A DNA stretch of 35,695 nucleotides. It comes from Arthrobacter sp. H20 (lineage in GTDB: Bacteria > Actinomycetota > Actinomycetes > Actinomycetales > Micrococcaceae). The position numbers were made by a program, and so were the translations under genes. Every line of letters starts with the position of its first letter. The first letter of the stretch is position 1. The DNA is taken from positions 58,837-94,531 of the forward strand of contig NZ_KI914755.1 of NCBI RefSeq assembly GCF_000520515.1. Direction: 5' to 3'. The notes under the pieces are model-generated. The model was not told the DNA's origin. It saw only the letters and a program-made list of their open reading frames with translations, and did no database searches. Shown here piece by piece: positions 16,946 to 23,268 of this stretch.

Positions 16946-17824
16946 ATGATCTTTCCCCGGATGGACTCGTTGTGGGCCGGCTGCCTGAGCTACCTCGATA
17001 GTGTTCGGTTGCGTCCGGGTATCGTGCTGGTGGCTGCTGCGATAGCTGATTTTTGGTCCCTGATCTTTCCGACTGAGTGTGCCGTGTGCGGGCGCGCCTC
17101 CGTCTCGCTCTGCCTGGAGTGCCAGGCGAAGATCCGGGAAGCCACGGTGCACCCGTTCAGGGCTGACGGAGCGGCGCCTGCGCTACCGCAGGCTGACAGG
17201 CCGGCTTTGTCCACCGCCGACTCGAACTGCCTGGAATCGCTGCCTGTCACAGCTGCCGGGCACTACCGGGCAACTCTGGCTCGGCTGATCCTGGCCTATA
17301 AGTCTCATCACCGAACAGATATCGTCAGACCACTGCAGGCAGCGCTCGCTTCCGCATTGCACGCCGCGGTGAATGAGCTGCGACGTGGCGGTGAACCAGC
17401 CCAGATTCTCTTGGTGCCGGCGCCGCCGAAAGGCAGGTCGATGCGACGGCGGGGCTATGATCCGGTAGCGGTGCTCCTCAACGGATTGGAGAGAAGGGGT
17501 GAGCTGCCAGCCGGCTGCCAGCAAGCCCGGTTGGTGAGGTACCCGGGCGCCGTCGGTCAGATTGGGCCGCTCCTTGAGGGGCGCAATCGTCCACAGCATC
17601 AAAAGGGACTCGGCCGCTCTCAACGACGCGCCAACGTCCGCTTCACCATGACTGAGCGAAGGACGAGGGACAGCGTGCAGTCGGCCGTGTGCCTCGTGGT
17701 TGACGATGTGCTGACCACCGGTGCAACCATCGCCGAGGTAACCCGGGTACTCCGGCTCGGCGGAGCCCGCGTCGTCGGAGGCGTAGTTGTCGCCGCCACA
17801 GCCCCGCCATCGGGTGCCGAGTGA
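16946..17824 (+). CDS. ComFC-like phosphoribosyltransferase-family protein
   Basis: 292 residues (an alternative ATG at 16961 gives 287; neither start has a good ribosome site). N-terminal zinc-ribbon-like cysteines in PTECAVCGRASVSLCLEC, then LARLILAYKSHHRTDIV, LVPAPPKGRSMRRRGYDPV, and the PRPP-binding loop CLVVDDVLTTGATIAEV. This is the ComF/GntX architecture. In competent bacteria ComFC takes part in DNA uptake and transformation; no other com genes are in this window. It lies downstream of lpqB, as is usual in Micrococcales, after a 91-base gap holding the palindrome TGTGCGCACA (16886-16895). Confidence 0.88.
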   Translation: MIFPRMDSLWAGCLSYLDSVRLRPGIVLVAAAIADFWSLIFPTECAVCGRASVSLCLECQAKIREATVHPFRADGAAPALPQADRPALSTADSNCLESLPVTAAGHYRATLARLILAYKSHHRTDIVRPLQAALASALHAAVNELRRGGEPAQILLVPAPPKGRSMRRRGYDPVAVLLNGLERRGELPAGCQQARLVRYPGAVGQIGPLLEGRNRPQHQKGLGRSQRRANVRFTMTERRTRDSVQSAVCLVVDDVLTTGATIAEVTRVLRLGGARVVGGVVVAATAPPSGAE

Positions 17825-17927
17825 ACTTTTTCGAAAAAACTACCCGTGAAGGATGAATATTGGAGGTGTGTGAACTAACGTGAAGTATGGATATCCCGAC
17901 ACGAACAGGTATCCGTCGACAGCGGCT

Positions 17928-17953
17928 GGAAGCACTACACCCCGGCCGCTGTT
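17928..17953 (+). promoter_or_regulatory. Possible SigH/SigR-type promoter of hpf
   Basis: GGAAG at 17928-17932, an 18-base spacer, then GTT at 17951-17953. The known SigR/SigH consensus is GGAAT-N18-GTT, so four of five -35 bases, the spacer and the -10 core match. Initiation would be ~25 bases before the hpf start codon. Confidence 0.35.
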
Positions 17954-17982
17954 GTGTCACCTAAGCGATTTTGGAGGGCACC

Positions 17983-18711
17983 ATGGAGTTTTTGATCAGT
18001 GGTCGAAATCTGTCAGTTTCGGACCGTTTTCGTGAGTACGCTGAGGAGAAGATCGACAAGATCGAGCAGCTTGGCGATAAGGTACAGCGGCTGGAGGCGA
18101 AAGTCACCAAGGAGCCCAATGCGCGCAACGCTGACAGCTCACTCACCGTTGAACTCACCGTCCTGGGTAAGGGAGCCGTGATCCGGGCTGAGGCATCAGC
18201 AGCTGACAAGTTTGCAGCATTCGACCTCGCCTACAGCAAACTGCTGGAAAGACTCCGACGTGCCCGAGACCGGCGGAAGGTGCACCATGGGCGCCATACG
18301 CCAACGGCCGTCCGTGAAGCAACAGCTGGTCTTGAACCCGCAAGTACCACCGCCCCGCTCTATCTGGCGGTACAGTCCACCGAGGTTCCACCCACGGCTG
18401 GCGACAGCGTCCCTGACGCCTATGAGATTGAGAACGACATCCCGGCGGGCGACTCGCCGGTGCTGATTCGTCGTAAGGTCTTTTCGGGCACCCCGATGGC
18501 TCTCGAGGACGCTGTGGACAATATGGAGCTGGTGGGACACGATTTCTACCTCTTTGTTGATTCAGCCACTGGAGCACCATCGGTTGCCTACCGCCGGCAA
18601 GGCTGGACCTACGGTGTGATCACCCTGGATGCCCGATGCGCTGAGGGAACCGAGGATCCGCATGAGGAGCTGCTGGCTTACCGGGCCCGGGAGGCCGCGG
18701 CCTCGGCCTAA
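17983..18711 (+). CDS. hpf: Long ribosome hibernation promoting factor HPF
   Basis: 242 residues, the long form. The N-terminal S30AE domain (1-100) begins MEFLISGRNLSVSDRFREYAEEKI. A ~70-residue linker leads to the C-terminal dimerisation domain (about 165-225), with SPVLIRRKVFSGTPMALEDAVDNMELVGHDFYLFVD. Long HPF binds the 30S decoding region and pairs two 70S particles into 100S dimers in stationary phase or stress. GGAGG at 17973-17977 is five bases before the ATG, which rules out the in-frame TTG at 17971. The linker is Ala/Thr/Pro-rich. Confidence 0.95.
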   Translation: MEFLISGRNLSVSDRFREYAEEKIDKIEQLGDKVQRLEAKVTKEPNARNADSSLTVELTVLGKGAVIRAEASAADKFAAFDLAYSKLLERLRRARDRRKVHHGRHTPTAVREATAGLEPASTTAPLYLAVQSTEVPPTAGDSVPDAYEIENDIPAGDSPVLIRRKVFSGTPMALEDAVDNMELVGHDFYLFVDSATGAPSVAYRRQGWTYGVITLDARCAEGTEDPHEELLAYRAREAAASA

Positions 18712-18733
18712 CCTGCTGCGGGAGTCACTCACG

Positions 18734-18745
18734 TAGGGTCAAAGA
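18734..18745 (+). promoter_or_regulatory. Putative leaderless -10 element of ycaQ
   Basis: TAGGGT at 18734-18739 is followed by six bases and the ATG at 18746; no ribosome site is present. The spacing equals that of three other genes in the window. No convincing -35 is seen. Confidence 0.5.
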
Positions 18746-19957
18746 ATGACAACAGTCCTCTCCCTGTCCCAGGCTCGGCGTATTGCACTTGGAGCACAGG
18801 GATTGGCAAAGGTAAGGCCCACCGGCCTCGCTTCGGCGAGGCAGGTGGGCCTTACCTTTAACCGCCTGTACCTGCTACAGATCGACTCGGTGAATGTGCT
18901 CGCGCGCAGCCACTACCTTCCCCTGTTTGCGAGGCTGGGACAGTACGATCGGGCACACCTCGATCGGCTGGCCAGCAAACACCCGAGGAAGATGGTCGAG
19001 TATTGGGCCCACGAAGCAAGCTTCATCCGCCCTGACCTTTTCCCCTATCTGCGCCCACTGCAGGAGCGGCGGTGGGTAGGAGCCAGTTCGGTGCCGGGGG
19101 CGCTCAGGGAATCGCTGCGCTCCCGTATCCGGGAGGTGCTTGCCGCCAGCTTGCCCCTGACCGCTTCGCAACTGCAACGTCGGCTGGGACATGCTGAAGT
19201 CCGCAGGGCCGACCAGTGGGGCTGGAACTGGAATTCAGTGAAGCGGGTCCTCGAGGACATGTTCGAGCGGGGACAGGTCTCGGCGGCCGGACGAACCGCT
19301 TCGTTCGAACGCCTGTATGCGCTGACTGAGCGCGTGATGCCTGACCCCGAGTACGCAGGCACGCAGGTAGACCCCTCAGATGCCTACCTGTTTCTCACTG
19401 AGCTCTCGGCCCGTGCCCAAGGGATAGGAACACTCAAGTGCTTTGCCGACTATTTCCGCCTGCCGTTGAAGCCGACGTCGACGGCGGTCGACAGGCTGAT
19501 CGCACAGGGGCACCTGGAGCGGGTCACCATCAACGGGTGGGAAAGACCAGCTTTCCGCCACGTTGAATCGGTACTGCCGAGGCGAGCCAGGGGAAGGGCG
19601 TTGCTGAGCCCGTTCGACTCGATGGTTTTCGAACGTCGCAGACTTTCAGCACTCTTCGGCTTCGATTACCGGATCGAAATCTACACTCCGGCCGCAGCCC
19701 GGCGCTACGGCTACTACGTGTTGCCGTTCCTCCTGCGGGAGACGATGGCCGCGCGGGTAGACCTCAAAGCCGACCGGGCTGCGAGCAAGCTTCTCGTCCG
19801 CGGTAGCCACAGCGAGCCGGGTGCACCGGCTGATACTGCGGCCGAGCTGGCGGCCGAGCTGCGGCTCATGGCCACCTGGCTAGGGCTCGACGACGTGGTC
19901 GTCGAGCAAAATGGCGATCTGGCGGCCGCGCTGAAGCTGGCAGTTTCCCTCGAATAG
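18746..19957 (+). CDS. YcaQ/AlkZ-family DNA glycosylase (HTH_42)
   Basis: 403 residues, normal length for the winged-helix HTH_42 family. Members excise alkylated bases and unhook interstrand crosslinks. The catalytic loop LLQIDSVNVLARSHY carries a Gln-x-Asp motif (Gln45, Asp47), the YcaQ type; the AlkZ type has Gln-x-Gln. Further landmarks are YWAHEASFIRPDLFP, RRADQWGWNWNSVKRVLEDMFERG, SPFDSMVFERRR and FDYRIEIYTPAAARRYGYYVLPFL. The start lies 34 bases after hpf and appears leaderless. Codons 21-38 encode a long UUCG-capped hairpin, between two conserved stretches of the protein, so it is inside the reading frame and not upstream of it. Confidence 0.9.
   Translation: MTTVLSLSQARRIALGAQGLAKVRPTGLASARQVGLTFNRLYLLQIDSVNVLARSHYLPLFARLGQYDRAHLDRLASKHPRKMVEYWAHEASFIRPDLFPYLRPLQERRWVGASSVPGALRESLRSRIREVLAASLPLTASQLQRRLGHAEVRRADQWGWNWNSVKRVLEDMFERGQVSAAGRTASFERLYALTERVMPDPEYAGTQVDPSDAYLFLTELSARAQGIGTLKCFADYFRLPLKPTSTAVDRLIAQGHLERVTINGWERPAFRHVESVLPRRARGRALLSPFDSMVFERRRLSALFGFDYRIEIYTPAAARRYGYYVLPFLLRETMAARVDLKADRAASKLLVRGSHSEPGAPADTAAELAAELRLMATWLGLDDVVVEQNGDLAAALKLAVSLE
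18808..18859 (+). repeat. Long UUCG-capped inverted repeat inside ycaQ
   Basis: Outer arms 18808-18823 and 18844-18859 pair perfectly over 16 bases. After a single G-A mismatch (18824/18843), arms 18825-18831 and 18836-18842 pair over seven more. The loop is C(TTCG)G, an extra-stable tetraloop. The outside edges are AAAGG and CCTTT, as in bidirectional intrinsic terminators, but only three T residues follow. It covers ycaQ codons 21-38 and lies 97 bases after the hpf stop. Confidence 0.95.
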
Positions 19958-19976
19958 CTGGCTGGAGGGCATCGGC

Positions 19977-20007
19977 TCGACAGGACAAGTCCTCTCTCCC
20001 GTAGACT
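19977..20007 (+). promoter_or_regulatory. Possible secA promoter
   Basis: TCGACA at 19977-19982 (five of six to TTGACA) and TAGACT at 20002-20007, with a rather long 19-base spacer. Initiation near 20014 would give a leader of about 40 bases with GGGAG ahead of the GTG start. Confidence 0.35.
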
Positions 20008-20052
20008 GAACAGGCCAGATTTCGGCGCACCTAAGATTGGGAGCAAATACCA

Positions 20053-22794
20053 GTGCCATCACTTCTTGAACGAGTCCTCCGCACCGGCGATAAGAAGACA
20101 CTGAAGAAACTCCGAAACTACGCTGACGCCATCAACGTCCTTGAGGACGAGTTTCGCGAGATGAGCGACGAGGATCTTAGAGGTGAGGCCGACAAGCTGA
20201 AGCAGCGCTTCGCCGACGGCGAGACCCTGGAGGCGCTGCTGCCGGAAGCATTCGCCGCGGTGCGGGAGGCTTCAGGCCGGACCCTGAAGCTACGGCAGTT
20301 CGACGTCCAGTTGATGGGCGGCGCCGCCCTGCACCTAGGTAATATCGCCGAGATGAAGACTGGAGAGGGCAAGACGCTGGTAGCGGTAGCCCCAGCCTTC
20401 CTCAACGCGCTTTCCGGAAAAGGCGTCCACATTGTCACCACCAACGACTATCTCGCTGAGTACCAGTCGGAGCTCATGGGCCGGGTCTTCCGCTTCCTCG
20501 GGATGACCTGTGGCTGCATCCTGTCCAAGCAGGACCCAGCCACCCGGCGCGAACAGTACAACGCTGACGTCACCTACGGGACTAACAACGAGTTTGGGTT
20601 CGATTACCTGCGCGACAACATGGCCTGGAGTGCAACCGAGTTGGTGCAGCGCGGCCACAACTTCGCCATCGTCGATGAGGTTGACTCGATCCTGATTGAT
20701 GAGGCGCGGACACCGTTGATCATTTCGGGGCAAGCCTCCGGCGACGTCAACCGGTGGTACACCGAATTTTCCAAGGTGGTGAAGAAACTCGCGATTGACA
20801 CTGACTACGAGGTCGACGAGAAGAAGCGCACCGTCGGGGTGCTCGAGGACGGGATAGAGAAGGTCGAGGACTATCTCGGTATCCAGAACCTCTACGAATC
20901 AGCCAACACCCCGCTGATCGGGTTTCTGAACAACGCCATTAAAGCCAAAGAGCTGTTCAAGAAGGACAAGGATTACGTAGTCCTCAATGGTGAGGTCATG
21001 ATCGTCGATGAGCACACCGGCCGTATCCTTGCCGGGCGACGTTACAACGAGGGCATGCACCAGGCCATCGAGGCAAAAGAGGGTGTCGACATCAAGGCTG
21101 AGAACCAGACCCTCGCCACTGTCACCCTGCAGAACTACTTCCGGCTCTACGAGACACTCTCAGGCATGACCGGTACGGCCGAGACCGAGGCCGCCGAGTT
21201 CATGGCGACCTACAAGCTCGGCGTGGTGCCCATCCCCACCAACCGGGCCATGGTGCGCGCAGACCTGTCTGACTTGATCTACAAAAACGAGATCGCCAAG
21301 TTCGACGCGGTTGTCAAGGACATCGTGGAACGCCATGAAACTGGCCAACCCGTTCTGGTCGGCACCACCAGCGTCGAGAAGAGTGAGTACCTGTCGAAGC
21401 AGCTCGCCAAGGCTGGTATTCGCCACGAAGTGCTGAACGCCAAGAACCACTCGCGGGAGGCGGCCATCGTGGCCCAGGCCGGGCGCAAGGGAGCCGTCAC
21501 AGTCGCTACCAACATGGCCGGTCGCGGCACCGACATTATGCTCGGCGGCAACGCCGAGTTCAACGCCATCGCCGAATTGGAAAAGCGGGGCCTGAGTCCA
21601 GCTGACAATCCCGACGAGTACGAAAGTCAGTGGCCTGATGCTCTGACTGCCGCGCGGGATTCGGTGGAGTCTGAGCACAACGAGGTCCGGGAACTCGGCG
21701 GGCTGTATGTGCTTGGCACTGAACGGCATGAGTCGCGGCGAATCGACAATCAGCTCCGCGGGCGTTCCGGACGCCAGGGCGATCCAGGCCGGTCGCGCTT
21801 CTATCTGTCGCTCACTGATGACCTGATGCGGCTGTTCAACTCAGGAGCAGCCGAACGCATCATGAACAGCTCGACCATGCCCGACGACGTCGCGCTGGAA
21901 TCAAAGTTGGTCTCCAAAGCGATCGAAAGCGCCCAGGGCCAGGTAGAGGGTCGTAACGCCGAGCAGCGCAAGAACGTTCTCAAGTACGACGACGTCCTGA
22001 ACCGCCAGCGCGAGGCGATCTACGGGGATCGCCGTCGTATCCTCGAGGGTGGCGACCTGCATGAGAAGGTCAGCTTCTTCCTCGAGGACGTCGTGACGGC
22101 GATGGTTGACGAAACCACCGCCCAAGGCCATGGCGACGACTGGGACTACGAGCAGCTGTGGACCAATCTGCGGACGCTGTACCCGATCAGCCTCACCATT
22201 GACGAAGTCCTTGATGAAGCAGGTGGACCGTCAAAGGTCACCAGAGATTTCCTCCACGCCGAGATTCTGTCGGACGCGAAGCTCGCCTATGAGACCCGTG
22301 AGCAGGCGCTGGGAGAGCAGACCATGCGCGAGCTGGAACGCCGAGTGGTCCTCTCCGTCATTGGGCGTAAATGGCAGGAACACCTGTACGAGATGGACTA
22401 CCTCAAGGAAGGAATCGGGTTGCGCGCCATGGCCCAGCGCGATCCCCTGGTCGAGTACCAGCGTGAAGGGTTCATCCTGTTCCAGGCGATGATGGAAGCG
22501 ATCCGGGAAGAAAGCGTGGGTTTCCTGTTCAACCTCGAAGTCGAGGTATCTGCTCCGGCGCCAACCGGGCTCCCAGGAGTTGCGGACGGCCGCGGGCTGG
22601 TGCAGGGTCCAACAATCAGGGCTGCGGGCCTTGACGCTCCTCAAAAGCCAGCGACCCTTAGCTTCTCAGCACCCAACGATCAGGGCGAGGTGGAAACCCG
22701 CGTGGAGAAGCGCGCAGCTTCAGCCAAGACCGCTGAATCCAATGGTGGCACCCGGGCCGAAGTCCGTGCCGCAGCCAAGCGCAAAAAGAAGTAA
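20053..22794 (+). CDS. secA: Preprotein translocase ATPase SecA
   Basis: 913 residues from a GTG. The motor of the Sec pathway, which pushes unfolded preproteins through SecYEG. Walker A is MKTGEGKT (Lys107) and Walker B is [16 protein letters not shown] (Asp208-Glu209). The preprotein-binding domain follows, then NBD2 with [14 protein letters not shown] and the [13 protein letters not shown] finger, then the helical scaffold and wing ([11 protein letters not shown]). The C-terminus is a Lys/Arg tail without the CxCxxxHC zinc motif, as in other actinobacterial SecA1 proteins. Only three bases separate its stop from that of the convergent Rv3235-family gene. Confidence 0.98.
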
Positions 22795-22797
22795 TCC

Positions 22798-23268
22798 TTA
22801 GCCAATCTCCAGTGCAGTCACCTTCCAGTGCCCGCGCCGACGCTCCAACCTCAGGGCGACGGCGCGGGCTCTGTGGTTCTCGCAGGTGACCGCTGACGCC
22901 TCGTACACCAGAGCCGTAACACGACAGGTGCGGACCGAGCGCACTGAGACATTCCGATGCAGTAGCTGGTCAGGGCGGACGCCTGCCGGGCCGCGGTTGA
23001 GACTGCGGACCAGGTTGGCGCGGAGCTGAAGTCTCTCGTAGCTGGCTGGATCCAACCAGTCAGCCAGCTGCTGCAACGGTCGGGATCCTCCGAGCACTTC
23101 CAGTGACGCCTGCGCCACTGAGCGTGCAATCCGCTGCACCTGAGCGGTTGCAGCGATGTCCTCGGGCGGCGGGTTGTGAGGATCATCTCCGTCGTGGGCG
23201 AGGGGTGGCGCCGTACTAATTGTTGGGATGACGGTGGCGGGGCGGGGAAGCTGTGTCTGGATGGTCAT
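22798..23268 (-). CDS. Rv3235-family protein
   Basis: 156 residues. The first ~45 residues are Pro/Thr-rich. The conserved core runs from IARSVAQASLEVLGGSRPLQQLADWLDPASYERL to VRSVRTCRVTALVYEASAVTCENHRARAVALRLERRRGHWKVTALEIG. This matches the Rv3235 family, usually found near secA in actinobacteria; its function is unknown. The beta-rich end (ARAVALRLERR...WKVTALE) resembles NTF2/SnoaL-type folds, which is only an inference. GAGGG precedes the ATG by seven bases. It follows the LysM gene by 17 bases, so the two form an operon. Confidence 0.8.
   Translation of the reverse strand: MTIQTQLPRPATVIPTISTAPPLAHDGDDPHNPPPEDIAATAQVQRIARSVAQASLEVLGGSRPLQQLADWLDPASYERLQLRANLVRSLNRGPAGVRPDQLLHRNVSVRSVRTCRVTALVYEASAVTCENHRARAVALRLERRRGHWKVTALEIG

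Follow-up and report, generated by a model that had tools for sequence, protein, structure and literature searches.

Why does a gene for a DNA glycosylase carry a very strong hairpin close to its start? The hairpin lies at positions 18808-18859 of a 35,695-nucleotide stretch of the genome of Arthrobacter sp. H20 (the window), inside ycaQ and behind hpf. We propose that it is probably the 3'-end element of the upstream hpf mRNA, embedded in the first 40 codons of ycaQ. Most likely, one stretch of DNA carries two messages here: the gene-end signal of hpf and codons of ycaQ.

The hairpin and its host gene

In the window, hpf (17971..18711, forward strand; Pfam PF02482 and PF16321) encodes a long ribosome hibernation factor, and its message is probably ended by the hairpin. 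The hairpin is contained in the next open reading frame, ycaQ (18746..19957, forward strand), which encodes an AlkZ-like DNA glycosylase of 403 amino acids (PF06224, E = 4.9e-58; 9zd6 is a solved relative). It is followed by secA (20053..22794, forward strand; identified as an ORF and by Pfam), which is the usual gene behind hpf in relatives that lack ycaQ. A scan of viral contigs confirmed no viral copies of ycaQ.

The 52 bases of the hairpin are AAAGGTAAGGCCCACC-G-GCCTCGC-TTCG-GCGAGGC-A-GGTGGGCCTTACCTTT. Its outer stem has 16 pairs between a 5' arm at 18808..18823 (ycaQ codons 21-26) and a 3' arm at 18844..18859 (codons 33-38), both placed by sequence, fold, and alignment. After one G/A mismatch, an inner stem of 7 pairs (18825..18831 with 18836..18842; sequence and fold) is closed by a UUCG tetraloop (18832..18835; sequence), which is UACG in the three nearest relatives and is replaced by other loops elsewhere. 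All of these features are on the forward strand. The first-pass annotation had described the same pairs, mismatch, and loop, and this description is exact; it had also placed the hairpin in codons 21-38 behind the hpf stop, and we agree, with the hairpin (nucleotides 63-114 of ycaQ) starting 96 nt past the last base of the stop codon. At its 3' foot, the Phe38 codon TTT (18857..18859, forward strand) forms a short U-tract; this UUU can pair with AAA, and AACCGCCT comes next.

The annotation had called the hairpin very stable, and the fold bears this out. The RNA from 18800 to 18868 folds at -51.2 kcal/mol (z = -8.4), and none of 200 dinucleotide shuffles folded as well. Against shuffles of synonymous codons that encode the same protein, z was -5.3 and none of 300 was as good. 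In a scan for stems across the whole window, the hairpin scored highest (57.0, versus 42.7 for the runner-up). It is a stable, GC-rich stem-loop soon after an upstream stop codon, as is expected of an intrinsic terminator. A generic scan of 17500-20500 did not list the site. Searching the same region against Rfam (cmscan, E ≤ 5) gave five matches, none of which reached the gathering score, so we rejected membership of the hairpin in an Rfam family.

We also rejected two other origins. Because a blastn-type search with the whole gene returned only the gene and the palindrome itself, and because the arm pattern GGCCCRCCN{12,30}GGTGGGCC has no other match in the genome, the hairpin is not a repeat or a mobile element; the 52-base element has a single copy at the sensitivity of these searches of the 3.4-Mb genome (88 contigs). 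Nor is it an insertion into ycaQ, as the aligned proteins show no gap there. The flanking protein motifs (QARR..AQGL ahead of it and QIDSVN behind it) are conserved across 11 aligned relatives, so the hairpin lies within translated sequence.

The ycaQ transcript had been described as apparently leaderless. TANNNT is the rule for a -10 box, and TAGGGT (18734..18739, forward strand), 6 nt before the ATG, is a candidate -10 box for a leaderless transcript. A scan of 17500-20500 for the sigma-70 consensus found no sites. A leaderless start is a candidate in this genome, on the basis of the TAGGGT motif, and it is not general: among 61 loci with an in-gene hairpin that we scored, 23 have TANNNT at a fitting distance, 32 have a Shine-Dalgarno-like motif, and six have neither.

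The second strongest stem of the window, at 22826-22873, has 18 pairs and 2 mismatches and begins 31 nt behind the secA stop. It lies inside the 3' end of a convergent gene (22798-23268, reverse strand), and the RNA from 22800 to 22900 folds at z = -4.2. This is probably the gene-end hairpin of secA, embedded in a convergent ORF.

Conservation of pairing in the Micrococcaceae

Of the 236 genomes from the family that contain ycaQ, 40 from beyond the genus were sampled for the comparison. Two loci that are this genome itself (L001 and L002), and one that is the same place as another (L041, the same as L014), were dropped before all counts. Of 118 Micrococcaceae loci, 12 were identical to others in the compared stretch, giving 106 distinct loci. 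In two genomes (L034 in G029 and L035 in G003), ycaQ is split into two frames; the core of the L034 hairpin still has 9 of 11 pairs. In G016 (L014/L041), hpf and the full ycaQ are separated by a partial second copy of the gene, which adjoins a run of Ns and may be an effect of assembly.

Across the Micrococcaceae (Arthrobacter and its kin), the outer stem occupies the same codons; its core uses nearly invariant synonymous codons, and compensatory changes surround the core. In other words, the pairing itself is conserved and not just the residues. When we anchored the comparison at QIDS, 62 loci had at least 9 of the 11 core pairs in the same register. The in-gene hairpin is shifted by one codon in another four loci (L076, L077, L166, and L168), and two loci have a different in-gene hairpin (L161 in G086 and L162 in G113). 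In these two, ycaQ starts 6 nt behind hpf, and the register of the hairpin is unlike all others, so it probably has a separate origin. Four loci with other folds (L106, L123, L125, and L170) also have z below -2 in the hairpin window.

Is there more structure than the protein sequence requires? Of the 15 nearest loci (L003-L017), all but L014 and L017 have more structure in the hairpin region than synonymous-codon shuffles do (13 loci), and no such excess was found for L018-L032. The z score for a single locus shifts with the random draw (for L003, it was -5.3, -5.0, or -4.5). Across 104 Micrococcaceae loci, which were taken regardless of pairing and without the two broken ycaQ genes (L034 and L035), the mean z in the hairpin window was -1.82, with 56 of 104 below -2. 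In 30 other windows of ycaQ from the same loci, the mean z was -0.13 (standard deviation 0.18; lowest mean -0.59). Among the 65 loci whose hpf-ycaQ gap is at most 61 nt, picked by the gap alone, 64 had z ≤ -1.4 and 56 had z ≤ -2.

The choice of codons is constrained in the same region. In the 62 loci that keep the core, nucleotides 71 and 104 of ycaQ (0-based) are G-C in all 62, and nucleotides 74 and 101 are C-G in 61. These are third codon positions, and nevertheless they are almost fixed. Similarly, Gly35 is encoded by GGC in 66 of 66 loci, Val34 by GTG in 62 of 62, and Pro25 by CCC in 58 of 59.

Because the core (8 pairs) hardly varies, the covariation comes from its flanks. In 59 short-gap loci that are in register, 84.1% of the cells of the outer stem are paired, versus 28-56% if the partners are slid by 1-3 positions. 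Double changes were seen at 9 of the 16 outer pairs, in 45 cells. Shuffling the 3' letters gave 16.8 such cells on average (standard deviation 2.9), and none of 200 shuffles reached 45; the slid-partner controls gave 11-35, with the highest count from a slide of -1 (8 pairs and 35 cells). In this register, third positions pair with third positions, so both partners can change silently. Where the pairing is not third-with-third, we found paired changes of amino acids: mostly Thr26 with Val34, but also Ile with Met (L009) and Val with Thr (L076, from A. gandavensis).

The position of the hairpin behind hpf

Among 100 distinct loci with hpf at most 400 nt upstream of ycaQ, the hairpin is in the gene only in 64, between the genes only in 31, in both places in four (L012, L015, L016, and L078), and in neither in one (L129, from Glutamicibacter). 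(Six loci without hpf within 400 nt, which are L014, L124, and L169-L172, are excluded.) The gap between hpf and ycaQ is 6-61 nt (median 29) in loci with only the in-gene hairpin, which starts a median of 91 nt from the hpf stop in this class; the gap is 67-202 nt (median 96) in loci with only an intergenic hairpin. The agilis-type relatives, for instance, have the same region of residues without the pairing, yet they have an intergenic hairpin instead.

This alternation is partly built in, because a hairpin does not fit into a gap of under 40 nt, and such gaps were outside the scan. What is not built in is that the in-gene hairpin is present in 64 of 65 short-gap loci. In a tree of ycaQ that was built from the columns behind the hairpin, and that leaves out the broken genes of L034 and L035, the in-gene and intergenic states require at least four changes. 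The tree yields only four independent pairs for a test of the alternation, a number too small to reach significance; 2-3 of them change in opposite directions and none in the same direction (sign test, p = 0.25-0.5). Three of the loci with two hairpins (L012, L015, and L016) group with the intergenic clade of the agilis type at a support of 90 (not starred), which is what one would expect of an intermediate. The substitute hairpins of the other clades have no sequence in common with the ycaQ hairpin.

Where the ycaQ of Micrococcaceae stands away from hpf (L124 and L169-L172), it has only 1-3 of the 11 core pairs. Conversely, 18 of 20 family genomes that lack ycaQ have a hairpin behind hpf (17 by a stem score of at least 22, and G111 by folding); for L190 and L192, the stem finder found none behind hpf at this threshold. 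Another eight ycaQ-less genomes all have a hairpin there, as judged by eye from their folds. Outside the family, an intergenic stem with a score of at least 26 is present at 10 of the 13 loci where hpf lies 75-220 nt upstream.

One of the ycaQ-less genomes, G111 (L173), is especially informative. We searched this genome for ycaQ and found no match. In it, hpf and secA are 150 nt apart, and the hairpin between them can be read as RPTRPVTARQVGRSLDRN, which corresponds to the codons of the ycaQ hairpin. Its alignment to ycaQ hairpins scores 36, versus a maximum of 16 for 620 control windows. Going by this similarity, G111 retains a fossil of the hairpin codons alone, behind hpf and without ycaQ. 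A second candidate for a fossil, in the ycaQ-less locus L197, scores 14, versus a maximum of 12 in its controls.

By these comparisons, the hairpin tracks the hpf-ycaQ junction and not the YcaQ protein, and we infer that hpf is its beneficiary. The simplest interpretation is that a hairpin is needed behind hpf and that Arthrobacter-type lineages have theirs within ycaQ. The first-pass annotation had raised the idea of a terminator that was captured as protein sequence. The conserved pairing, the behavior of a gene-end element of hpf, the alternation with intergenic hairpins, and the fossil in G111 all support this idea in part; termination itself is a prediction from the sequence. The annotation's statement that such structures are normally placed between genes was too strong: of 26 protective 3' hairpins reported in E. 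coli by Dar and Sorek 2018 (PMC5927463), 17 lie 107 ± 56 nt into the downstream ORF and show conservation at wobble positions.

In 400 kb of a related genome (G010, with rough gene calls that cover 86% of the sequence), 15 of 16 stems with a score of at least 40 were outside of the called genes. The one exception is at the start of a gene for an iron-transporter permease, behind the gene for its binding protein (L223:2789-2837). Homologs of this iron ABC permease (L225-L234, including L228 from the Arthrobacter sp. H20 genome itself, G000:C2:15547-17142) have a hairpin at the same place with different stem sequences, although the start codons at all these loci, including L223, are uncertain.

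How the hairpin might act

We give about an even chance to the hairpin acting by termination, as a GC-rich intrinsic terminator of the actinobacterial kind. RNA polymerase leaving hpf would make the hairpin about 100 nt past the stop codon, and the long GC stem with its short UUU foot would most likely cause release of the transcript. If there is no termination, then the hairpin would instead be the 3' end of the hpf mRNA after cleavage downstream, closed to exonucleases. By either route, the hpf message would be made or kept in excess over the ycaQ message. GC-rich terminators in Streptomyces likewise have long and very stable stems with few U's: the 10 nt that follow the stem contain 3-4 U's, transcripts end at a median of 66-76 nt behind the coding sequence (Term-seq; PMC12207403), and a U-rich class is defined by 3 or more U's in 8 nt (PMC8269248). 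Unlike those terminators, the ycaQ hairpin is inside the next gene, with its start a median of 91 nt from the hpf stop across the in-gene class, and its termination is putative.

The alternative that survives best is that hpf and ycaQ are co-transcribed, the transcript is cut in ycaQ, and the hairpin blocks 3'-5' decay of the hpf part, with no termination. This is possible, but we doubt it. The hairpin's position in ycaQ is within the range of the E. coli class (PMC5927463). Also, among the 35 intergenic hairpins, only that of L157 has a clear T-run behind it, as judged by eye, so a U-tract is not what these elements have in common; and the 32 of 61 in-gene loci with a Shine-Dalgarno-like motif have gaps that are too short for much of a promoter, which suits co-transcription. 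On the other hand, 23 of the 61 have a candidate promoter for ycaQ itself, and the Phe38 codon looks like a selected U-tract. It is TTT in 47 of 50 loci, as compared to 225 of the 901 other Phe codons in these genes (272 of 951, minus those at codon 38). Among in-register loci, 43 of 46 have TTT, and just 11 of these 43 have a paired third T, so pairing does not explain the preference.

The structures of Dar and Sorek, from E. coli, Salmonella, and Enterobacter, are similar to the ycaQ hairpin in several ways: they are stable hairpins about 100 nt inside the downstream ORF, they are credited to the upstream cistron, and they show extra conservation at wobble positions, just as the structure and wobble positions of the ycaQ hairpin are conserved in its relatives. 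As reported there (PMC5927463), they lack a U-tract and were defined by mapped 3' ends and decay, whereas the ycaQ hairpin has a conserved UUU codon and is known from its sequence. The ycaQ hairpin also differs in its actinobacterial host family, in that the element moves between the gap and the ORF, and in persisting after loss of the host gene. The malE-malF type of 3' hairpin, which is described in the same source, similarly sets an abundant first product apart from a scarce second one, but the malE hairpin is intergenic.

Another explanation is that the hairpin attenuates ycaQ itself, by terminating transcription unless a closely following ribosome on the ycaQ message opens it. This is compatible with all of our observations: the ATG is close upstream, 62 nt before the stem, and there is a candidate leaderless promoter here and a TANNNT in 23 of the 61 loci. 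Still, we think that it is unlikely, as the hairpin is not kept where ycaQ is elsewhere (L124 and L169-L172) but persists in the absence of ycaQ (L173). Also, in E. coli, translation is reported to have lowered the efficiency of a synthetic tR2 terminator, placed 30 bp into an ORF, by only about 10% (Li et al. 2015, PMC4824070). This speaks against strong translational gating; opening by ribosomes may be possible in leaderless-type lineages (23/61) and less so in those with a Shine-Dalgarno-like motif (32/61). These constructs also indicate that a coding region can have a working terminator in its first 100 bp, although they are engineered, while the ycaQ hairpin is natural and conserved.

It is less plausible still that the structure serves ycaQ or the DNA itself, as an RNase III site, a translational control of ycaQ, a cruciform, or a palindrome that is bound by a protein. 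The near-invariant core, GGCCC(A/G)CC/GGTGGGCC, could be a sequence-specific site, and a stem of 16+7 bp would be a suitable substrate for a double-strand RNase. But the hairpins that replace it in other clades are unrelated to it in sequence, its arm pattern has no second match in the genome, and the position that is kept is relative to hpf, not ycaQ.

Finally, it is very improbable that conserved residues and GC-rich codons produced the hairpin by chance: the third-with-third register and RPT...VGR in GC-rich codons do predispose to pairing, and 79.7% of cells are still paired after shuffling the 3' letters, but the synonymous shuffles, the constrained codons, the independent hairpin of L161 and L162 in another register, and the fossil all argue against it.

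To return to the hairpin as the 3'-end element of hpf, we can tentatively extend this reading, although we would sooner expect parts of the extension to fail than all of it to hold. The terminator would be a coding sequence too and would steer the YcaQ protein, through forced paired swaps (Thr26..Val34, Ile..Met in L009, and Val..Thr in L076). It would have moved several times between intergenic and in-gene positions within the Micrococcaceae, arisen a second time in another register (L161/L162), and outlived its host gene (L173). In leaderless lineages, it would be opened only on ycaQ's own, ribosome-carrying message. Hairpins early in the ORFs behind other abundant genes, such as the binding-protein gene of the iron transporter, might then suggest a general layout of these genomes.

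The placement of such hairpins in a downstream ORF is already published for E. coli (Dar and Sorek 2018, PMC5927463). Among papers with open full text in PMC, to which our literature search was directed rather than to subscription papers, we found none on this hairpin or on the hpf-ycaQ junction; relative to those papers, the comparative depth, the repeated relocation, and the fossil appear to be new. Together, these loci form a long comparative series in which one stretch of DNA encodes a protein segment along with a gene-end signal, and the series includes replacements and a second origin as well as a fossil and an intermediate that has both hairpins. It is now testable whether gene-end hairpins drift into neighboring ORFs as intergenic gaps shrink, how far a hairpin bends its host protein, and whether ribosomes open it. 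Terminator finders that are restricted to intergenic DNA will misread such places, as will dN/dS tests that treat synonymous sites as neutral.
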